The position numbers and the translations under genes were made by a program. This document shows, piece after piece, positions 15,041-24,900 of a stretch of 64,000 nt of DNA; position 1 is the first letter of the stretch, and every line of letters starts with the position of its first letter. Origin of the DNA: Thiorhodococcus drewsii AZ1 (GTDB taxonomy: Bacteria > Pseudomonadota > Gammaproteobacteria > Chromatiales > Chromatiaceae); the NCBI RefSeq assembly GCF_000224065.1, contig NZ_AFWT01000022.1:1-64000 (forward strand). The letters are read 5' to 3'. Under the pieces are notes generated by a model, which did not search any database, was not told the origin of the DNA, and saw only the letters and a list, made by a program, of their open reading frames with translations.

Positions 15041-15410
15041 GGGTCCCATTCTCCTGACGTCGCGAAGGGGCGGGCGCCCTCTAGCTGATTGCCGGTTCTG
15101 TTCGCGGCTCTCGGATGAATCGATCGGATGCTTGGCCGGCACTCTCAAGGTCGACCCATGGGTCGGCTTTCAGGCCGAGATTATCAGCAAAGTCAAACGC
15201 TTGCCATGAATCAAGGTCGATCGGGGCCGGGTATTGTACGGGAACTCGTCCCTCGGATGGAAATGCGGGTGGACATGCAGTCGCAATGAAGCCGCGTTGG
15301 AGGTGCGATGCATCTGGCCATGAGACGCGTCTCTGTCCGAGCGAGCACGAGGGAATCCGTGCGCGAGGTTGGTTCAACCTGTCGGTCCCTTATTTCCCCT
15401 TGGGCGTCTG
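15041..15410. other. 370-bp stretch without a supportable gene
   Basis: Both strands have open frames here. The minus-strand frame (15081-15377) holds a plausible stretch ending VDLESAGQAS but lacks a convincing start codon or ribosome-binding site, and no family is recognised. The region separates the comEC/WGR block from the decayed gene at 15411 and probably marks the left shoulder of the acquired segment. Confidence 0.4.
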
Positions 15411-15739
15411 ATGGCCACCCCCTCGGCCTTGGCCATGCTGGAGAATCACGGGGTCGATCCCTTGTCGCTCCTTCAGCGTCACGTCAGGGTGACTGGCGAT
15501 CTCACGGCTGAGGGCATTGCGAGATCGCCCTACCGCTCACCGATCGATGCCGAGATCGCGGCCTTCGTGGCCCGATTGGATGCCGACTTGCGGGGGAGTA
15601 TTTCGAGGAACGAGCAGCCATCACCGAATTCGATGGCGGTCTGACTCGCTCCGAAGCCGAGCGTCAGGCATATGAGCTGCCCCGGGAGCTGCTACAGCGT
15701 CGACATCCCCGAGATGACGCCGTCGATCCTTGGGCCTGA
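15411..15739 (+). pseudogene. Frameshifted remnant of accessory hypothetical gene(s)
   Basis: The first frame starts MATPSALAMLENHGVDPLSL with LLQRHV and GDLTAE, like small plasmid- or phage-borne proteins of the type ATP-ALxxLE..G-DP-LLxRH. It continues to PIDAEIAAFVARLDADLRG. Homology then moves to another frame at about 15592: EYFEERAAITEFDGGLTRSE, ERQAYELPRELLQ, ending at the TGA at 15737-15739. The two parts look like remains of two neighbouring accessory genes fused by deletion, or of one gene with a frameshift. It sits at the left border of the reverse-transcriptase insert. Confidence 0.5.
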
Positions 15740-16136
15740 TGGTCCGTCGACCGTGCGAGCCCGACCGGAAATCGATCGGAACGGGTCCGTACGGTCGTCT
15801 TCGGCCAGACGGCCCTGACGTCGATGCGCTTGAAGGGCGCGACAGGGAGGTGGTCATTTTTTTATCAGAAGACTGGAGGTTGACGGACTGGAGGTACGTT
15901 AGCTTGCCTGATGTAATGATTGCCACGCGCTGAGTAACAGTCTACTTAGCAGACTGGTTAACGCAATTTTTCTCTTTAACTCATTGCCTTACATGTTATT
16001 TAACACTCTTCTGCGAGCTTGTTCTCCCTACCCTCACTACTCTAAGTAGAAGTACAGAATGCATAACCCTTTAGAGGCGATCAGAAAAGGGTTATCCTGT
16101 CGTTCTACGTGCCCCATCTAGAGAAAGGGAGCCTCT
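15740..16136 (+). promoter_or_regulatory. AT-rich leader of the reverse transcriptase operon with two hairpins
   Basis: This 397-bp stretch has no supportable gene. From about 15850 the base composition turns AT-rich. Two inverted repeats stand out: 15935-15960 (CAGTCT/AGACTG extended by TAA/TTA with a bulged G) and 16063-16095 (perfect 10-bp arms ATAACCCTTT/AAAGGGTTAT). The second ends 41 bases before the first reverse transcriptase gene. GGGAG precedes its GTG start by 5 bases. The hairpins may be an attenuator or the 5' part of an RNA. No ACACAC tract occurs here. I could not fix a promoter. Confidence 0.4.
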
Positions 16137-17375
16137 GTGCACGATCAATCTTTTGGTTACTCCAGCCTCCTTCGTTGCCTTCGACGATCGGATTTCTATA
16201 CCCATCGAGATCTTCACATCGATGACCGCAAACGCCTATATATAGAAAATGGCGTGAACATCCTTCGCGATGAATGGCCTCGCAACCCTTTAATTAAAAG
16301 ACATACCTGTAAAAAGGATTTTTATTTCGTAGACAACCTTCCGTCCATTCTAATACTCCGAAAGATCCAAAAAAATCTACAGCATGCTTACAAGCCCACC
16401 ACTCTTAATCGAAATTCTGTCGTCAATGTATTATCAAGACTACTTCAAGAAGGAACGCCCTATCGAGTATACAGAACGGACATCCGCTCCTTTTTCGAAA
16501 GCGTAGACACCGTCCCACTGCTAGAGTCAATTAACAAAAAAAGCGGGCTAAGCCCCCTTACAAAAGAGGCATTACAGCATTTTTTCAGGCATTACAAAGC
16601 AGCTGGAGGAGTCGGGCTTCCAAGAGGATTAAGTCTAAGCTCTGTGCTCTCTGAAATCGCACTGCATGATTTCGATAACACAATAAAGAGAAATATTCAT
16701 TCGCAATATTATGCCCGATATGTCGATGACATTCTTGTTATTACAGATGCTCGCGAAGCGGAAAAAGAATTTTACGAATTTATCGCAAACGCTCTTCCTG
16801 AATCTTTAGAATTAAATTACAAAAAAACCTCCGTCATCACATTAAAAAAATCCATAAAAGAATCTGGCACACATGAATTAGAATATCTTGGCTATCGCTT
16901 AATTGTCCCCCCTCTAAAAGGAAGTAGCAATACAAAAGATAAAAGTTTTCGCCAAGTCGAAATAGAAATCGCTGATAAAAAAATAAACAAAATAAAAACA
17001 AAAATAGTCAGATCTTTTCTAAGCTTCGCTCAAAACAGAGACTTCATACTACTACATGACAGATTAAAATATCTCACTAAAAATTTTTCAGTTTACGATT
17101 ACAAAACCGGAACTAAAAATCTTTCTGGCATCTTCCACAACTACCCCAACCTCAGCCATAACAACCAGAGCATTGAACTTTTAGACAAATTCCTAAAAAT
17201 TGCCATTATTTCACAAAAGGGAAGGTCTTTTTCTCGAACCAACGGCCTATTAACAAAACGTCAGCAGCGATTGCTTCTTACTTTAAGTTTTAGAAAGGGT
17301 TTCTCCGAAAAAGATTTCATCCACTTTAGTGGAAAACGGATTATTCAGATACAAGAGTGTTGGAAAAATGCGTAA
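16137..17375 (+). CDS. drt3a: Defence reverse transcriptase Drt3a (UG3 type)
   Basis: A 412-residue reverse transcriptase. The RT core runs from about residue 60 to 270: motif A TDIRSFFESVD (catalytic Asp115), then GGVGLPRGLSLSSVLSEIAL, then ARYVDDILVITD (Asp197 and Asp198), then LEYLGYRL. The region after about 290 is Lys- and Asn-rich with no recognised domain. There is no maturase or endonuclease domain, so it is not a group II intron protein. Size, absence of a retron VTG motif, and the second, different reverse transcriptase directly downstream point to DRT3, an antiphage system of UG3 plus UG8 enzymes. As I recall, Drt3a makes poly(GT) DNA on an ncRNA template. GTG start; AT-rich codon use unlike all neighbours. 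Confidence 0.85.
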   Translation: MHDQSFGYSSLLRCLRRSDFYTHRDLHIDDRKRLYIENGVNILRDEWPRNPLIKRHTCKKDFYFVDNLPSILILRKIQKNLQHAYKPTTLNRNSVVNVLSRLLQEGTPYRVYRTDIRSFFESVDTVPLLESINKKSGLSPLTKEALQHFFRHYKAAGGVGLPRGLSLSSVLSEIALHDFDNTIKRNIHSQYYARYVDDILVITDAREAEKEFYEFIANALPESLELNYKKTSVITLKKSIKESGTHELEYLGYRLIVPPLKGSSNTKDKSFRQVEIEIADKKINKIKTKIVRSFLSFAQNRDFILLHDRLKYLTKNFSVYDYKTGTKNLSGIFHNYPNLSHNNQSIELLDKFLKIAIISQKGRSFSRTNGLLTKRQQRLLLTLSFRKGFSEKDFIHFSGKRIIQIQECWKNA

Positions 17376-19314
17376 ATCTAAAGGCACTCGATGTCGCGTT
17401 AGAAAAAAGGACTATGATCGCGTGGTTCTTACAGAAACACTGCCATTCGACACTCCGATCATATTTTCCAATGACGGCTTCTATGAGAACCTCAAAAGAT
17501 CAACAACTCGAATATCAAATGATATTCTCGATATGATCCAAAGCTCAAAAAAACCAACTATACCTTTTCACTACAAAATCCGAAGGAACTCCACTGAATA
17601 CAGAAGACTTTCCATAATACATCCTTCAGCACAATACAGGATTAGAAATATTTACCAAGAATACGACGAAGTGATTTTACATTATTCAAGAATCAGCCCG
17701 GCATCGATACGCGCCCCGCATCGCAAGACTAGTGTCTTCTATCTAAAGAATCACCTCAATGATATTTACAAGTTTAAGTCTGGCATTGTCAGCACCACAG
17801 AGATGGAGAAATTCGCAAGGCATGCCCCTTCTTTCTTTTCATATAGAGGTTTCAACCGGCTATATGAGTTTTTTGAATCTCCTGATTATTTTCGGCTCGA
17901 AAAAAAATACTCGATATTTTGGAGTCTAGACGTAAGCAAGTGCTTTGATAGCATCTACACACATTCATTATCCTGGGCGATAAAAGGAAAAAATTTCACA
18001 AAAGAACATAAGGCTGTAAGTACGACATTCGCTCAAGCGTTCGACTCAGCCATGCAAAATGCAAATCATCAAGAGACAAATGGGATAATCATTGGCCCTG
18101 AGGCAAGCCGAATATTCGCAGAGTTAATATTTCAAGCAATAGACCGTAAGGTAATACAGACTCTCGAAGATCGCTGCAAGTATCAGTTCGATGAACAATA
18201 TTGTTTTCGACGCTACGTCGACGATGTATATATTTTTGCAATTACAGAAATAATTGCAGCCGAAGTTTATAATTGCTATGCAAATGAGCTTCTTGCGTTC
18301 AACCTGCACACCAATTCTAATAAACTCGTAAAGATTACCCGACCTTTTTTCACAAAAAAGTCGATGATCATACAAGAAACACGTCGAGATCTCGCTAATT
18401 TTTTAGATAAATTTCTAGGTCATAGAAAAAATGATAATGCCATTTTTCCAAAAAAAATATATTCCACTTGGAAGCTTACAAGAAGTTTTATTGATGCAAT
18501 TAAGAGCAACTGTAAAAAGCGTGATGTAGATTACCATGAAGTCAGCTCTTATATTGTATCTACCGCATCAAAAAGAATTGAAGTCTTAGTTAAGATAGCC
18601 CCAGAACCGGGACTTGAAAACGAAGAAAAATACGCCGATGCCATTGTTGTTTTATTAGACATATTGTTTTTCTTTTATAGCGTTGCTCCTACAGTCACAG
18701 GTTCTTACAAAATATCCCGATCAATCGTTTTAGTCTCTCGATTTTCAAAAAAATGCCTACCTATCTACCAAGATAGAATCCTGCAGCTAATTTATGATTT
18801 AGCTGAAAATTATTTCGAATCTAAAAATGACACTAGAGTAATTATTTCCGATGAATTATCTCTGGAATACATAAATGTCTCGTTAGCATTAGCAGAACTT
18901 GGGGATAAATACTCACTTCCTGATGATACCGTGAAAAAGATATTCAACATAAACAACGAAATGTCTTATTTTCACTGGATTTCCGCCCTCTTCTACGTTA
19001 GAAATGCCCGCAGATATAGTGAAATCATGGGCTTACTTGAACAGTCGGCATACCGTTTTTTAGATCGCATCCAGCAAATAGAAACGGACGCTGAAATTTG
19101 CCTAGTGTTTATGGATCTCGTCAGCTGCCCCTATTTATCTAATACAATCAAGAAGAAAGCCATCTCCGAATATTGCAAGGCGCGACAGATCTCTCCTCCC
19201 ACTAAAGCCGAAAAGGAAACATTTATTAATACCACAACAAAATGGTTTGTTGACTGGAAAAATCTCGATTTACTTCAAGCGCTTGAGAAGAAAGAGTTGA
19301 AACGAATGTACTAG
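17368..19314 (+). CDS. drt3b: Defence reverse transcriptase Drt3b (UG8 type)
   Basis: About 648 residues from the ATG at 17368, which overlaps the end of drt3a by 8 bp; a GTG at 17329 would add 13. Motif A is WSLDVSKCFDSIYTHSL (Asp188). The next block is GIIIGPEASRIFAELIFQAI, in the style of Abi-type reverse transcriptases (AbiA/AbiK/Abi-P2) rather than retrons. The catalytic box is RRYVDDVYIFA (Asp285, Asp286). About 300 helical residues follow with no known domain, as in other Abi-like enzymes. As second gene of a two-reverse-transcriptase operon of this size it fits Drt3b, reported, as I recall, to make the complementary poly(AC) strand without a nucleic acid template. AT-rich like drt3a. 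Confidence 0.85.
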   Translation: MRKSKGTRCRVRKKDYDRVVLTETLPFDTPIIFSNDGFYENLKRSTTRISNDILDMIQSSKKPTIPFHYKIRRNSTEYRRLSIIHPSAQYRIRNIYQEYDEVILHYSRISPASIRAPHRKTSVFYLKNHLNDIYKFKSGIVSTTEMEKFARHAPSFFSYRGFNRLYEFFESPDYFRLEKKYSIFWSLDVSKCFDSIYTHSLSWAIKGKNFTKEHKAVSTTFAQAFDSAMQNANHQETNGIIIGPEASRIFAELIFQAIDRKVIQTLEDRCKYQFDEQYCFRRYVDDVYIFAITEIIAAEVYNCYANELLAFNLHTNSNKLVKITRPFFTKKSMIIQETRRDLANFLDKFLGHRKNDNAIFPKKIYSTWKLTRSFIDAIKSNCKKRDVDYHEVSSYIVSTASKRIEVLVKIAPEPGLENEEKYADAIVVLLDILFFFYSVAPTVTGSYKISRSIVLVSRFSKKCLPIYQDRILQLIYDLAENYFESKNDTRVIISDELSLEYINVSLALAELGDKYSLPDDTVKKIFNINNEMSYFHWISALFYVRNARRYSEIMGLLEQSAYRFLDRIQQIETDAEICLVFMDLVSCPYLSNTIKKKAISEYCKARQISPPTKAEKETFINTTTKWFVDWKNLDLLQALEKKELKRMY

Positions 19315-19321
19315 CGAGGTA

Positions 19322-19480
19322 TCTTTTACGATGAGAGTCGCGCTTTGCCTCCTCCACAGGAGTTGTAACTTCTGTCTTTCTACGGACAACGACTTTTGGA
19401 TCCCGAAGAGAAAATTGCGTATCCGTATTGAGCGGGCTTAGTGCTCGCACACACTCAGGGGGCGGCACGACTCTCACCTT
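19322..19480 (+). ncRNA. Candidate DRT3 non-coding RNA with ACACAC template
   Basis: This segment starts 8 bases after the drt3b stop. A 9-bp helix (TGAGAGTCG at 19332-19340 with CGACTCTCA at 19468-19476) closes it. Inside are hairpins at 19349-19362 (CTCCT/AGGAG), 19381-19427 (TACGGA/TCCGTA) and 19430-19446 (GAGC/GCTC). Directly after the last one is an unpaired GCACACACTC with ACACAC at 19449-19454. As I recall, an ACACAC template in the ncRNA directs poly(GT) synthesis by DRT3. The tract occurs nowhere else in the leader or tail of this operon. RNA ends are guesses, and position relative to known DRT3 ncRNAs was not compared. Confidence 0.6.
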
Positions 19481-19494
19481 TACCCTAAGAGTCG
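19468..19494 (+). terminator. Hairpin competing with the ncRNA closing helix
   Basis: CGACTCT (19468-19474) can also pair with AGAGTCG (19488-19494) across a 13-base loop. The same CGACTCT forms the right side of the closing helix of the candidate ncRNA, so the two structures exclude each other. It may mark the processed 3' end of the RNA or act as a weak terminator; no T-run follows. Confidence 0.35.
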
Positions 19495-19580
19495 CCCTAT
19501 AACGCCGTCTAGAGCATCTCAGGAACTGGCTCTATCTGGAAAGAACCGTACGCAGCTCCACCCAGAATAAGACCGGAAAC

Positions 19581-19619
19581 AAAAAAAAGGGCTTAGCCTC
19601 TCGGCTAAGCCCTTTTTTT
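19581..19619 (-). terminator. Strong bidirectional intrinsic terminator
   Basis: Eight A, then 10-bp perfect arms GGGCTTAGCC/GGCTAAGCCC around a TCTC loop, then seven T. It terminates in both directions. On the minus strand it lies 3 bases after the CCA end of the tRNA-Gln fragment, the usual place for a tRNA terminator. On the plus strand it also insulates the reverse transcriptase operon. Confidence 0.9.
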
Positions 19620-19622
19620 GTA

Positions 19623-19670
19623 TGGCTGGGGAACTAGGATTCGAACCTAGATTGACGGAGTCAGAGTCCG
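19623..19670 (-). tRNA. tRNA-Gln(CTG) 3' fragment, likely attachment-site copy
   Basis: Read on the minus strand this is the 3' part of a tRNA: anticodon arm GGACTCTGACTCC with loop CTCTGAC (anticodon CTG, Gln), T arm CTAGGTTCGAATCCTAG with a perfect 5-bp stem, and the acceptor 3' strand TTCCCCAGCCA. The D arm and 5' acceptor strand (expected TGGGGAA) are absent; homology stops at the anticodon stem near 19670. It cannot make a functional tRNA. Such 3' copies arise when an integrase uses a tRNA gene as its attachment site. An open frame over it (translating AGELGFEPRL) is an artefact. Confidence 0.75.
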
Positions 19671-19824
19671 CCAGGCTTCAGACGTTCCCTGATGGCCACA
19701 TCCTGCACGGGGTGTGGGCCGAGCGCATGCGGCTTGCGGCTAACCCCCGACATTTCGCCAAGCCGGCCCGGCCCAGATCGCCTCCAGCATCTTCTAAGGG
19801 GACAGTGTGGCAGCCGGTTTGGGC

Positions 19825-20577
19825 TCAATTGGCGGAAAAGGTGACGAGGACGCAGGTCAGGAGGGCCAGGGTCTCGGTGATTTCGACCAATGCGCCGGCG
19901 GTGTCTCCGGTGAATCCGGCGATGCGCTCCAGCATGCTGCGTCGGGCGAGTACGAAGGTCGTCACGGCCACGATCAGCAGAATCAGGCCGACCCAGCCAG
20001 TTGCGAGCAGGCAGACCAGGGCGCTGGTCAGGGTTGCGAACCAGGCGGTTCGCCGCTGCAGATGGCGGGATTGATCGCCCGCCATGCCGTGCTCTCGGGC
20101 ATAGGGCGTGGTGAGCAGCAGCAGTGACAGTTGGGTGCGCCCGAGCAGGGGCATGAACAGCAGCAGCCAAGGCTGTCCGTCGGTCATCAGGGCCTGGATG
20201 CCGGCCCATTTGGCGATCAGGACCAGGACGATGGCGCTCACCGCCGCCGGACCGCAGCGTGGGTCCTTCATGATGGCGAGGGTGCGCTCGCGGCTGCCGA
20301 GTCCGCCGACCCAGGCATCGGCGCTGTCACCCAGTCCGTCGAGATGGATGCCGCCGCTCGACCAGACCCAGAGGATGAGAACGAGTGCCGCCGCGACTCC
20401 CGGTTCGGTCTGAGCCAGCCCGATGCCGGCCGCCGCCACCAGGACGCCGAGTATCAGACCCACGACTGGGTACCAGGGGACTGAATGGCCGGTATCGGTC
20501 GCTGATGCCTCGCCGGGATCGGGGAAGGGCAGGCGGGTCAGCAGACGACCCGCGATCCACAAGGGGCGCAGGCTCAT
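19825..20577 (-). CDS. cobS: Adenosylcobinamide-GDP ribazoletransferase
   Basis: A 250-residue multi-helix membrane protein that joins adenosylcobinamide-GDP to alpha-ribazole (phosphate) in the last part of cobalamin assembly. The family signature GGIHLDGLGDSADAW lies near residues 75-89, followed by DPRCGPAA. The start ATG overlaps the TGA of cobC (ATGA), so the two are coupled. With cobC and cobT it forms the lower-ligand loop pathway; cobU is not in the window. Confidence 0.96.
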   Translation of the reverse strand: MSLRPLWIAGRLLTRLPFPDPGEASATDTGHSVPWYPVVGLILGVLVAAAGIGLAQTEPGVAAALVLILWVWSSGGIHLDGLGDSADAWVGGLGSRERTLAIMKDPRCGPAAVSAIVLVLIAKWAGIQALMTDGQPWLLLFMPLLGRTQLSLLLLTTPYAREHGMAGDQSRHLQRRTAWFATLTSALVCLLATGWVGLILLIVAVTTFVLARRSMLERIAGFTGDTAGALVEITETLALLTCVLVTFSAN

Positions 20578-21157
20578 GCCTGTCCCCGATGGAATACCAG
20601 GCTGGGGCGTCCTGGTGCCTCCAGAATGCGCAGCCGGGTGAAACAGGCGTAGGGCACCTCGACCAGCAGGATGGCCTCATCCGGCATCTGTAGCGTTTCG
20701 GCGACCAGCATGCGGATCACGCCGCCGTGGGTCACGGTAAGGGGTGTTCTCCATAGCGGGCGAGGATGTCGTGGTGGGCCTGGCGAACCCGATCGCGAAA
20801 CTCGGCGAAGGGCTCGCCGTCGGGTGGTGTATAGCCGACCGGATCGTCCCAGAAACGCGAGAGTTCGTCCGGTGGGATCTGATAGGCGGCCAGCCCTTCC
20901 CAGGCGCCGAATCCGCGCTCGGCGATTGCCGGTTCCTGGCTGAAAGGCAGGCCGAGCTGTTCGGCCAGCTGCCGCGCGAAGTCGGCGCAGCGACAGGAGG
21001 GCGAGCTGATGATCTCTGTCCAGTCGCAGGCGGACTCGGTGGCGAGCCGCATCTGCTCCCAGCCACGCTCGCTTAGCGGGTCGTCTTGATCACCACGGAA
21101 TCGAGCGCCACCCTGGACTTCGCCGTGGCGCAACAGATCTAGGAGGCGCTCGTTCAT
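20574..21157 (-). pseudogene. cobC: Alpha-ribazole phosphatase (histidine phosphatase), frameshifted
   Basis: The N-terminal part (from 21157) is a histidine phosphatase with the catalytic LLRHGEV, EIISSPSCRCADFARQLAEQ and the ERGFGAWEGL stretch. In the C-run read from the minus strand (20741-20744) one base is missing, and the frame stops at 20732 after YGEHPLP. Restoring one base continues the protein as LTVTHGGVIRMLVAETLQMP and then to HRGQA, with the second active-site His. It ends at 20574, overlapping the cobS start. CobC dephosphorylates alpha-ribazole 5'-phosphate. The neighbours are intact, so this is either a recent mutation or a homopolymer sequencing error. Confidence 0.85.
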
Positions 21158-21161
21158 TCGC

Positions 21162-22214
21162 CTAGACCTCAGTTACGCCGGCTTCTGAAAAAGTCGCCAT
21201 CCTCTGATGGACGACACAGGCGAGCCGTAGCAGCGGCACCAGTGCCTCGCCGCCGGTGGCCTCGCCCAGGCGCATTCCGAGATCCAGATAGGGATCCGCG
21301 TCGAGCGCCTCCATCATGAGCCGGTGACCCGGCTCGGCCGAGGTGTGCGAGAAGATCATCCAGTTGCGCACCTCGGGCTGCAGACGGACGGCGGCGAGCG
21401 CGGCCGCGCTCATGATGAAGCCGTCGACCAGGATCGGCAGACCGCGCTGGGCTGCGGTGATGTAGGCGCCGGTGGTGGCGACGATGTCGAAGCCGCCGAG
21501 ACGGGCGAGCAGGTCCAGTGTGGAGCGCCCGGGTTCCAGATGTAGCGCCAGCGCGGACTCGATGGCTTGGCGCTTACGGTCGATCCCTTCGGCGTTGAGT
21601 CCGGTTCCGGGTCCGACCATGTCGACGACCGGCTTGTCCAGCAGTGCGCAGGCGACGGCGGTGGCGGGCGTGGTGTTGCCGATGCCCATCTCGCCGCAGA
21701 TCAGCAGTCTGGCCCCGTTGCTCAGGGCGCGCTCCACACCGGAACGCCCCGCGTTCATGGCGGCCACCAGCTGTTCCTCGCTCATGGCCGGTTCGCGGGC
21801 GATGTTGCCGGTTCCGAAACCGAGCCGCTCGGAGCGGACGTTTTCAACTGGACCGGGATCGGTCAGGATCCCCAGGTCGATGATCTCCATCCGTGCGCCG
21901 ATCGCCTCCGCCATCACCGAGACGGCGGCGCCGCCGTGCGCGATGTTGCGCATCATCTGGATGGTCACCTCTTGCGGGTAGAGCGACACCCCCTCGGCGG
22001 CGACGCCGTGATCGGACATGAACTGGAGAATGTGGACCGGGTCCGGCGAGGGTGCCGAGGCGCCCTGCATGCCGGCGAGCTTGATGGCCATCTCTTCGAG
22101 CCGGCCGAGCGATCCGCGAGGCTTGGTCAGCTGATCTTGGCGCCGGCGCGCTGAATCGGCTGCCATGCTGTCGATCGGGAGGATGGGGTCGTTGATCCAG
22201 AGCAATCCTTCCAT
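21162..22214 (-). CDS. cobT: Nicotinate-nucleotide--dimethylbenzimidazole phosphoribosyltransferase
   Basis: A 350-residue enzyme that makes alpha-ribazole 5'-phosphate from dimethylbenzimidazole and nicotinate mononucleotide. Typical blocks are LTKPRGSLGRLEEMAIKLAG, FMSDHGVAAEGVSLYPQEVT, GEMGIGNTTPATAVACAL and VGPGTGL, with the catalytic Glu late in the chain. The ATG at 22214 (MEGLLWIND) is preceded by GGAGGTG at 8 bases and is preferred over the upstream 22262. Only 4 bp separate it from cobC, so cobT-cobC-cobS is one operon. Confidence 0.96.
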   Translation of the reverse strand: MEGLLWINDPILPIDSMAADSARRRQDQLTKPRGSLGRLEEMAIKLAGMQGASAPSPDPVHILQFMSDHGVAAEGVSLYPQEVTIQMMRNIAHGGAAVSVMAEAIGARMEIIDLGILTDPGPVENVRSERLGFGTGNIAREPAMSEEQLVAAMNAGRSGVERALSNGARLLICGEMGIGNTTPATAVACALLDKPVVDMVGPGTGLNAEGIDRKRQAIESALALHLEPGRSTLDLLARLGGFDIVATTGAYITAAQRGLPILVDGFIMSAAALAAVRLQPEVRNWMIFSHTSAEPGHRLMMEALDADPYLDLGMRLGEATGGEALVPLLRLACVVHQRMATFSEAGVTEV

Positions 22215-22571
22215 CAGCGGGTCACCTCCGTTGAGTGGGTGCCGTTCGTGCCGCTCGGGCAAACCCGCGTGAGCGTGTCCATGGGCATCAGTGGTGTCGT
22301 CTTCTGGGTCAGACGTGATTTTTTGTTATGCATGACTTGGTTCGTCGGTTCATTCGGTGAGGCAGTTCGCCGGCTTGCGCTGGCGGGGCCTGCCGGCAAA
22401 GGCGACCACATCGGCTGGCGGTATGCTGGCCGTGCTCGATCGCCGGTTGGCCTGGTCCGTCAGGCACCTCGCCTCCTGCTCATCCCAGTCGCGAGGAGGC
22501 GAGGTCGTTGGGTGCGACCGCGCGCTCGCTGGAGAGGCTCGGGCGCGATTCTCGCCGTTGCTGCCGGGTGT
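22215..22571 (-). other. 357-bp gap between btuB and cobT with a long inverted repeat
   Basis: No supportable gene on either strand. A perfect 11-bp inverted repeat (ACCTCGCCTCC at 22466-22476, GGAGGCGAGGT at 22495-22505) with an 18-base loop lies just downstream of btuB in its direction of transcription. It could be a terminator or a stabilising hairpin, but has no T-run. I see no cobalamin riboswitch core here, so cobT may be read from btuB or from its own unseen promoter. Confidence 0.45.
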
Positions 22572-24452
22572 TCAGTCGAAGCGCTTGGGCGCGTAGCGTA
22601 GCGTCAGATAGAAGGCCCGCCCGGGGCGATTGTAAAGGTATGCCGTTTCATAGTCCTCGTCGAAGGCGTTTTCCAATCTGGCCTGGAGCCGTAAGGCGGT
22701 GTTGATCGCGTACTCGGCGCGAAAATCCACCAGGCTGTAGCTGTCGAGCCGCTCGCTGTTGGCCAGGTCGTCGAACCGGCGTCCCGAGACGAAGAGGGTG
22801 GTGCCGATCGACCAGCGTTCGAATTGGCGGTCCAGATCGAGCTGGAAGGTCTGTTCTGCCCGACGTGGCAGCAGGTTGCCGTCGCTGGCGTTGTCGGAAC
22901 GGTTCTCTGGATCCATGAGGGTCAGCGCCGAGTTCAGGTCCCAGTCGAGGATGCGTGCCTGCGCCGATGCCTCAATGCCCAGGATGCGAGCGCTCTCGAT
23001 ATTGGCGGCTGATTGGGTGGGCGCGTCGTAGGCGATGAGGTCGTCGATCTGGGTGCGGAAGAGATTCAGCTCCCAACGTCCCAGCGTCGCCCAGCCGAGC
23101 GGCAGCTCGCCCTGGAGTCCCAGTTCGAGACTGTGCGACTGCTCGGGACCCAGCTCCGGATTGCCGTAGTTGGGATAGTAGAGGTCGTTGAAGGATGGCG
23201 CCTTGAATGCGGTTCCGTAGGAGGCCGAGACCTGAATGCCGTTCTCGAACAGATACCCAAGTGCGGCGTTGCCGGTGGCGTGTGTGCCGAATTGCTCGTC
23301 GTCGTCCTGACGCAGGCTGAAGGTCAGCGTGGTGGGGCCGAATTCGCCCTGGTATTGGCCGAAGACGCCCAGGTTGTCGCGTGAATCCTTGCTGTAGTCC
23401 ACGGTGCCGGACACGCTGTCCTTGGCGTAGTCCACTCCCAGTGTCAGCACCTGGCCCAGTGCGATACGCAGGTCGTTCTGCAGGGCCACGCTGTCGCGTT
23501 CGGTTTTGAAGCCGTCGAGGAAGCGATCGTCGATCCCTTCGGAGGCGTCGTCGTAATAGGCGCGATAGTTGTCCCAGCTGTGACCGGCCGAGAGGGTCAG
23601 CGTCCAGGGCGTCAGTGGCCGCAGCTTGAACTCGCCCCCCAGGACCTGCTGCCAGGAGCGCGAGACATTGCCTCCATACATCGATCCATCGAACTCGGTG
23701 CGGCTATGCGCGTTCAGCAGGTGCAGGTCGAGCGATGCCCGGTCGCTGAAGCGGTAGCCCGCGCGCACGTTGACGCCCAGCGTGTGGTATCCGTCGCGGT
23801 CGTTTTGGAGCACGCCGCATCCGGCATAGGGGATCGGGCGTCCGTCGCAGGCGTTGATGCCGTCGGTGCGCTCGGCGTTGACGCCCAGGTCGAACCAGGC
23901 GCGCTCGCCGCCTCCCGAAATCCCGGCCGATGCCGAGAGTGTGCCGAAGCTGCCGCCGCCGATGCTGGCGCGCGGTGTCAGCGGGCCGCCGCCGTGACGG
24001 GTGAAGATCTGGATGACACCGCCGATCGCCTCCGAGCCATAGAGGCTCGAACGCGGTCCGCGAACCACCTCGATGCGTTCGATCTGCTCGATCGGGATGT
24101 CCTGTAGCGGCGAGGTGCCCAACGTGGCCGAGCCGATTCGGACGCCGTCGATCAGGACCAGGACATGGTCGGAGTTGGTTCCACGCAGTGAGACGGAGGC
24201 CACGTGTCCAGCCCCGCCGTTCTGGGACAGGGTTACGCCGGGGACCCCGCGCAGCAGGTCGGGGACGGAGCGCGCTTGGCGGCGCTCGATCTCGGCGCGG
24301 TCGATGACGGTGACTGCGGCGAGCGCGGCGGTTTCCACAGTCGGGGTGCGTGTCGCCGTGACGATGACGGGGTCGAGATTGGTCGGTGAGTCGGCAAGCG
24401 CAGTGCCTGCCAGCGCGATGGCCAGTGGGGCCAGCGTCAATGGGTGCTTCAT
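22572..24452 (-). CDS. btuB: TonB-dependent vitamin B12 receptor
   Basis: A 626-residue outer-membrane receptor importing cobalamin and related corrinoids. Signal peptide (residues 1-20), TonB box region DPVIVTATRTP, plug domain with DLLRGVPGVTLSQNGGAG, VLIDGVRIG and RIEVVRGPRSSLYGSEAIGG, then a 22-strand barrel ending NRPGRAFYLTLRYAPKRFD. The cobalamin riboswitch just upstream and the cobTCS genes downstream confirm the substrate. Expression should fall when B12 is plentiful. Confidence 0.96.
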   Translation of the reverse strand: MKHPLTLAPLAIALAGTALADSPTNLDPVIVTATRTPTVETAALAAVTVIDRAEIERRQARSVPDLLRGVPGVTLSQNGGAGHVASVSLRGTNSDHVLVLIDGVRIGSATLGTSPLQDIPIEQIERIEVVRGPRSSLYGSEAIGGVIQIFTRHGGGPLTPRASIGGGSFGTLSASAGISGGGERAWFDLGVNAERTDGINACDGRPIPYAGCGVLQNDRDGYHTLGVNVRAGYRFSDRASLDLHLLNAHSRTEFDGSMYGGNVSRSWQQVLGGEFKLRPLTPWTLTLSAGHSWDNYRAYYDDASEGIDDRFLDGFKTERDSVALQNDLRIALGQVLTLGVDYAKDSVSGTVDYSKDSRDNLGVFGQYQGEFGPTTLTFSLRQDDDEQFGTHATGNAALGYLFENGIQVSASYGTAFKAPSFNDLYYPNYGNPELGPEQSHSLELGLQGELPLGWATLGRWELNLFRTQIDDLIAYDAPTQSAANIESARILGIEASAQARILDWDLNSALTLMDPENRSDNASDGNLLPRRAEQTFQLDLDRQFERWSIGTTLFVSGRRFDDLANSERLDSYSLVDFRAEYAINTALRLQARLENAFDEDYETAYLYNRPGRAFYLTLRYAPKRFD

Positions 24453-24615
24453 GTCGGGAGGGTCTCCAGCGATGACCTCTGCACACCCGCAGGGTCAAAT
24501 CAAGGAGGGGTCAGCGAGCGGGTTGGGCGAAGACGGGAGCGCGTGCGTGGAGCGTCGGGCATCCCAGGTGGACGCCCCTCGCGACCCCGGTGGGTGGGCC
24601 GTGGACGACACAGAA

Positions 24616-24634
24616 CGGACCGAGTGAAGGTCCG
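24616..24634 (-). promoter_or_regulatory. Hairpin in the riboswitch expression platform
   Basis: CGGACC/GGTCCG arms with a 7-base loop directly follow the riboswitch core in the direction of btuB. It is a candidate for the switching hairpin, but no T-run follows, so control may be at translation or by Rho. Confidence 0.35.
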
Positions 24635-24645
24635 AGTGCGGTCGG

Positions 24646-24860
24646 TTGGCCCGGATCTCCTGGCCGGTCTCCGGACTCACGATTGGGCCTGACGCCCAGA
24701 CGCGACACCTTCCCATGACGACATGTCACAGTGGCATCAGATCGCGTCTTCGATTCGTTTACCGTTGCGGGGGCAGCGCCGGGTTTGTTCCTCGTGTGCA
24801 GGTGACGCACCGGCTTCCCGTTCAACCCTCTGGGCGAAAGCTGCAGAGGGCACCTGAAGA
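24646..24860 (-). promoter_or_regulatory. Cobalamin riboswitch upstream of btuB
   Basis: On the minus strand the conserved core pieces appear in order: GGTGCCCTC, GGGAAGCCGGTGCG, CGGCGCTGCCCCCGCAACGG with TAAACG, GCCACTG, TGGGAAGG, and the B12 box AGTCCGGAGACCGGCCAGGAG. This is the standard adenosylcobalamin-sensing aptamer. Its end lies about 190 bases before the btuB start, leaving room for an expression platform. Binding is expected to shut off btuB. Confidence 0.95.
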
Positions 24861-24871
24861 TCGAGCGCGCT

Positions 24872-24900
24872 ATTAACGGTTTTTTTGAGTGGTAGGTCAA
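24872..24900 (-). promoter_or_regulatory. Sigma70-type promoter for the btuB riboswitch transcript
   Basis: Minus strand: TTGACC (24900-24895), 17-base spacer, GTTAAT (24877-24872). Transcription would begin near 24865, right at the start of the riboswitch aptamer, which supports the call. Confidence 0.7.

Follow-up and report, generated by a model that had tools for sequence, protein, structure and literature searches.

The 64,000-nt stretch of Thiorhodococcus drewsii AZ1 DNA analysed in this study (the window) carries two overlapping reverse transcriptase genes followed by a predicted non-coding RNA (ncRNA). We consider it very probable that this locus was acquired horizontally and is a structurally complete antiphage system of the DRT3 type, working as EcoDRT3 does. 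Judged by its sequence it adds a new and apparently complete member to a known system; its DNA products, RecBCD control and defence function we infer by analogy with the E. coli system. The two protein-coding genes are:

16137..17375, forward strand: drt3a, class 2 / UG3 reverse transcriptase of 412 aa with a GTG start (NCBIfam NF041747, PADLOC Drt3a, PDB 9z6y_A).
17368..19314, forward strand: drt3b, class 1 / UG8 reverse transcriptase of 648 aa counted from an ATG (NCBIfam NF041748, PADLOC, PDB 9z6y_H and 26cz_A).

Two overlapping genes had been proposed at these positions in a preliminary description of the DNA, and both reading frames were found there on the forward strand. The genes are adjacent, apparently as in one operon, with an 8-nt overlap at 17368-17375. 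Begun at the GTG at 17329, the drt3b reading frame would encode 661 aa. The ATG at 17368 was considered the likelier start, because it gives the 8-nt overlap (ATGCGTAA) with the drt3a stop and an overlap of exactly this length is annotated in three of the seven plasmid loci used (L004, L005 and L009); the remaining plasmid loci have drt3a/drt3b overlaps of 11, 11 or 4 nt, or none. The catalytic YVDD of the first enzyme was located at residues 195-198 of Drt3a, as described, with GLPRGLSLSS at residue 160, and the IIIGPEASRI reported for the second enzyme was present in Drt3b. The placement of the second YVDD at residues 283-286 is right when counted from the ATG at 17368 and wrong when counted from the GTG at 17329, which moves it to 296-299.

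The proposed DRT3 identity (UG3 plus UG8) was borne out by profile searches, which put both proteins over the curated Drt3a and Drt3b cut-offs. Drt3a scored 380 bits against NF041747 (cut-off 200, E 1.8e-113) and 435.3 bits against PADLOC Drt3a (E 6.9e-131), and Drt3b scored 634.5 bits against NF041748 (cut-off 350, E 2.3e-190) and 698 bits against PADLOC Drt3b (E 2.3e-210). As sequence similarities, these family matches are far beyond chance. The generic RVT_1 domain found in both proteins, together with weaker matches to other reverse transcriptase models, could also be read as two enzymes of other UG, Abi, retron or intron lineages that merely lie side by side. This reading is refuted by the scores and we regard it as practically impossible: among the matches listed, the next-best PADLOC families were RT_UG17 for Drt3a (105 bits vs 435) and Drt6 for Drt3b (134 bits vs 698), and other UG, retron and group II intron models of NCBIfam and PADLOC scored far lower for both proteins. 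The pair also recurs: of the 99 homologous loci that extend far enough for it to be seen, 98 have a Drt3a match within 700 nt upstream of Drt3b (the loci sampled include the best 80 of 472 contig relatives). Thus neither of the outcomes named beforehand as contrary to DRT3, membership of another UG, retron or intron clade or a lack of co-occurrence, was encountered.

Among solved structures, Drt3b matched 9z6y_H (E 2.5e-136) and 26cz_A (E 6.7e-80); we take PDB 26cz to be the DRT3b of EcoDRT3, because the residue numbers fit. The best PDB relative of Drt3a was 9z6y_A (E 1.8e-67). The entries 9z6y and 9z6z, presumably the DRT3 complex of Deng et al. 2026, are the closest solved relatives of both window proteins, and the C-terminal Tyr is the last residue in them as it is in the window.

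For comparison with relatives we used a set of 102 loci consisting of the window, 7 plasmid records and contigs from GTDB and IMG/VR. The genome-contig relatives were the best 80 of 472, so the survey leans to relatives nearer the query, and near-identical loci were kept in its counts. L011 was left out of all counts; this E. coli plasmid (CP083496.1) carries a DRT3-like locus with drt3b in two pieces. Weak or partial relatives on viral contigs (L115-L122) were excluded from the residue table, and the broken or incomplete L101, L108, L111 and L079 from the 103-locus count; L026, L046, L110, L034 and L070, which are cut by contig ends, were also excluded from the tree and the 102-locus count. 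The loci of the set are near full-length with respect to Drt3b. Drt3a is in pieces in L037, L071 and L111; of the loci within the 102, L037 and L071 have it divided over two ORFs and L058 has a short one. The tree was made with FastTree and carries local support only. Good Drt3b relatives were seen in 23 of the 31 viral-contig loci found (L092-L114, IMG/VR), of which L101, L108 and L111 have Drt3b in two ORFs.

The claim of a complete DRT3 locus stood with a correction: the interval given for it, 16137-19314, stops short of a predicted ncRNA that runs to about 19480, and completeness holds only because this unnoticed downstream ncRNA is also present. Its features are:

about 19331..19480 (ends approximate), forward strand: predicted DRT3 ncRNA with the template near its 3' end and internal hairpins (fold, compensatory changes and arm-swap test).
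19332-19340 with 19468-19476, continued inward by 19342-19353 with 19457-19466, forward strand: predicted closing stem of the ncRNA (predicted fold).
19432..19448, forward strand: predicted 6-bp hairpin (GCGGGC-UUAGU-GCUCGC) directly 5' of the template (predicted fold).
19449..19454, forward strand: ACACAC, the expected Drt3a RNA template for poly(dTdG), left single-stranded by the predicted fold (sequence, fold and relatives).

According to the available text of Wang et al. (PMC13174585), DRT3a of EcoDRT3 synthesizes poly(dTdG) on a conserved ACACAC loop of a downstream ncRNA, and the accessible part of a review (PMC13314766) describes DRT3 as a 6:6:6 assembly of both enzymes and the ncRNA. 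In the window the ACACAC lies 134 nt past the Drt3b stop, between the 6-bp hairpin and the closing stem of the predicted fold. The fold of 19315-19500 had a z of -3.0 and was equalled by 1 of 200 shuffles. Since ACACAC by itself occurs often in the window (13 matches vs 16 expected), the argument for a template rests on the relatives. Counting the window, 98 of the 102 loci whose Drt3b is near full-length have the motif no more than 270 nt downstream of that gene, which suggests that the RNA half is nearly universal, with few exceptions, in the DRT3 loci sampled (best 80 of 472 contig relatives). Control stretches contained it far more rarely: it occurred in 29 of 998 stretches of 270 nt taken further downstream, in 4 of 93 lying upstream of Drt3a and in 3 of 103 from the opposite strand. 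The downstream count belonging to this control comparison was 99 of 103, since three loci outside the tree set were kept and two tree-set loci dropped.

The closing stem is supported, without any alignment, by a comparison of its own arms with arms swapped between loci: predicted pairing energies averaged -26.3 kcal/mol for own arms vs -18.0 kcal/mol for swapped ones, the median rank was 0.025, and at least 90% of swaps were beaten in 74% of the 96 loci (near-identical ones kept). In a rough alignment of the ncRNAs of 12 relatives, compensatory changes were seen in 9 of 10 predicted consensus pairs. Hairpins next to the template showed only a mild enrichment across relatives, with a stem of at least 7 in 24% of 98 loci vs 14% of random positions, the stem in the window being 6; the hairpin in the window is a possible stop for read-through. 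When 50 sources were searched with a covariance model built from 12 of 23 aligned ncRNAs, picked for better alignment, only five matches had an E of 1 or lower; one of the five is necessarily the window, which went into the model, and another lies on the wrong strand. Applied to four genomes with ACACAC-less DRT3, the model gave only two weak matches, both in one genome. Because it recovers few distant relatives, we rejected the model as evidence for distant ncRNAs, and the ncRNA is poorly defined outside the template and the closing stem. No DRT3 family was found at this position with Rfam.

Four relatives with intact-looking Drt3b had no ACACAC within 450 nt downstream. Intact-looking Drt3a and Drt3b with no ACACAC in that range were observed in L022 and L028 (Snodgrassella) and in L149-L151. 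Among 14 Snodgrassella genomes, three contained an ACACAC-less Drt3b and a fourth had a weak partial match only; in these loci the ncRNA has either been lost, lies elsewhere or carries another template. In L089 (Colwellia) CACACG takes the place of ACACAC; it stands one base past a hairpin, about 81 nt beyond the Drt3b stop, and may be a shortened template. L091 (Janthinobacterium) shows no clear template.

The window locus and EcoDRT3, as far as the latter is described in the accessible sources, are alike in gene order, the downstream ncRNA with ACACAC, the YVDD in both reverse transcriptases, R71, R241 and a C-terminal priming Tyr. Mapped onto 26cz, the working residues of Drt3b are Asp28 (E22), Arg79 (R71), Arg248 (R241) and Tyr648 (Y666). 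Differences were found as well: Tyr648, at the priming position, is the last residue of Drt3b, whereas the Tyr of EcoDRT3b is second-last, and the window has Asp where EcoDRT3b has E22. Among 111 aligned Drt3b sequences the R241 site, the dC-switch arginine, was R in all 111; the R71 site was R in 106 (gap 4, N 1) and the Y666 site Y in 105 (gap 5, L 1). The E22 site, or dA gate, was E in 70, D in 36 and a gap in 5, so that the window has the minority form. Its gate is thus conserved as an acidic residue in the alignment and would count as lost if Glu alone can serve. By alignment the Drt3b of 9z6y and 9z6z also has Glu at this position, unlike the window. The same contrast holds for Drt3b of Bordetella (L012), Caballeronia (L013) and Methylomonas (L024), which are 45-46% identical to the window over the aligned Drt3b, share the downstream ACACACTCA with it and carry Glu at the gate.

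The available text of PMC13174585 identifies E22 as the dA gate of EcoDRT3b, reports D at this site in a substantial fraction of homologs and states that engineered E22D keeps only partial poly(dCdA) synthesis. Because E22D is only partly active in EcoDRT3b, the window Drt3b may be weaker unless compensated. In the FastTree tree (102 rows) at least 8 changes occur at this site. The window is the sole D in the starred 14-row set and also in the starred 25-row set, whose other members have Glu. We screened for alignment columns that follow the gate, testing 25 of 68 candidate column-residue pairs; best by raw difference, among the matches listed, was a proline at R241 minus 4. It was present in 66 of 68 E-type and 9 of 34 D-type sequences, the window being among the 9, and hence absent in 25/34 D-type vs 2/68 E-type. 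Corrected for kinship, the association was not significant (8 independent pairs, averaging 0 same, 3.5 opposite, 4.5 undecided; median p 0.125). Neither 'P237' nor 'proline' was found in a search of the main text of PMC13174585.

From these observations it could be argued that the locus is a DRT3 system whose Asp gate alters the Drt3b product, for instance by looser alternation or more poly-dC, so that the strands match imperfectly or the system works differently. The role of E22 and the partial activity of E22D, the lone D within a 25-row clade of otherwise E, and the frequent absence of the proline near the switch in D-type enzymes would fit such a change. ACACAC was however retained downstream in all 34 D-type loci (64 of 68 E-type; the four relatives lacking it are all E-type), and an altered Drt3b repeat would mismatch poly(TG); the R241 site is moreover invariant, and the window retains its proline. 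We consider an altered product very improbable. The retention of ACACAC in 34/34 argues that the poly(CA)/poly(GT) product is kept in D-type loci, and gives indirect evidence that Asp still gates dA. More speculatively, and in our opinion rather doubtful, the dATP-selecting residue may flip between Glu and Asp repeatedly while the template of the partner stays fixed, the dA gate and the dC-switch loop coevolving under the constraint of the RNA template; the window would then be a natural uncoupled Asp enzyme.

Horizontal acquisition of the DRT3 system was considered in relation to the surrounding DNA, which contains the following features:

about 15265..19844, no strand: island with no counterpart in the comEC-cobS interval of G001, a genome of the same genus (alignment).
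19582..19619, no strand: perfect inverted repeat of 17 bp, flanked by A/T tracts on each side and resembling a terminator in both directions (sequence; absent from the terminator-scan list).
19623..19700, reverse strand: degenerate tRNA-like remnant at the right edge of the island, edges set by eye (Rfam tRNA 24.9 bits, below the 29-bit gathering score).

In G001 the comEC and cobS flanks are collinear with the window, and the two matching blocks lie 17 bases apart there. The flanks have a G+C content of 65% and 67%, compared with 39% over 15841-19619; in its left part (15265-15840, 576 bp) the island resembles the flanks, with 64%. Only the window's own genome, among 92 searched, had a protein over the Drt3b cut-off. 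The 3' end of the tRNA remnant differs from the genome's tRNA-Gln(ctg) by 2 mismatches in 25; intact tRNA-Gln genes are present elsewhere in the genome, and ARAGORN found no tRNA gene in the window. The 17-bp inverted repeat adjoins this tRNA-Gln-like remnant. An exact 11-bp direct repeat, CTGATGGCCAC, was noticed near both island edges (15408-15418 and 19689-19699), and is possibly an attachment or target repeat, or due to chance. Together the tRNA remnant and the 11-bp repeat fit the insertion of a mobile island, without proving it. Promoter and terminator scans gave no more matches than shuffles. To the right, 19825-24872 of the window holds cobS, a histidine phosphatase, a cobT-type phosphoribosyltransferase and a TonB-dependent receptor, with a cobalamin riboswitch at 24645-24872 on the reverse strand.

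Another possibility is that the cassette has decayed or fallen silent and survives as a relic on the genomic island. The first 872 bp of the island (15265-16136) contain no recognised genes and no match to plasmid DNA, and a 91-aa ORF in them belongs to no Pfam family; this stretch and the degenerate tRNA are what a relic might show. The full-length reading frames, the intact catalytic, gate and priming residues, the short gene overlap and the predicted ncRNA stem with its template all speak against decay, and we find it highly improbable.

The preferred reading, a complete DRT3 system, is consistent with the host genes. Those looked for, recB, recC and greA, were all found over their cut-offs, consistent with the importance of RecBCD and GreA to EcoDRT3 given in the accessible text of PMC13174585. 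The genome also has two Photo_RC genes and dsrA over its cut-off, which is consistent with a purple sulfur bacterium, as had been guessed from the DNA. A literature search naming DRT3 together with Chromatiaceae found no report, which is no proof of absence.

By analogy with EcoDRT3, Drt3a would make poly(dTdG) by copying the ACACAC of the ncRNA over and over. Synthesis of poly(dCdA) by Drt3b would be primed by the enzyme's C-terminal Tyr648 and need no nucleic-acid template, side chains of Drt3b taking that role: Arg248 would act as the dC switch, and Asp28, which replaces Glu22, as the dA gate. The poly(dTdG) and poly(dCdA) strands would then anneal to repeat double-stranded DNA, which RecBCD would normally hold low; a phage that blocks RecBCD would allow its accumulation and thereby trigger abortive infection.

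DRT3 is a case of a protein active site dictating a DNA repeat, the strands being made by two reverse transcriptases, one copying RNA and one working without a nucleic-acid template. For the RNA template, the survey goes further than the modelling in PMC13174585, which covered 32 ncRNA hits (41 systems according to the legend). The homolog from a phototrophic sulfur bacterium presents a conservative natural change in the protein template with the RNA template unchanged, and so offers a comparison for how protein templating tolerates variation. The value of the locus lies in this natural Asp-gate variant and in the entry point it gives to a survey whose exceptions are worth study.
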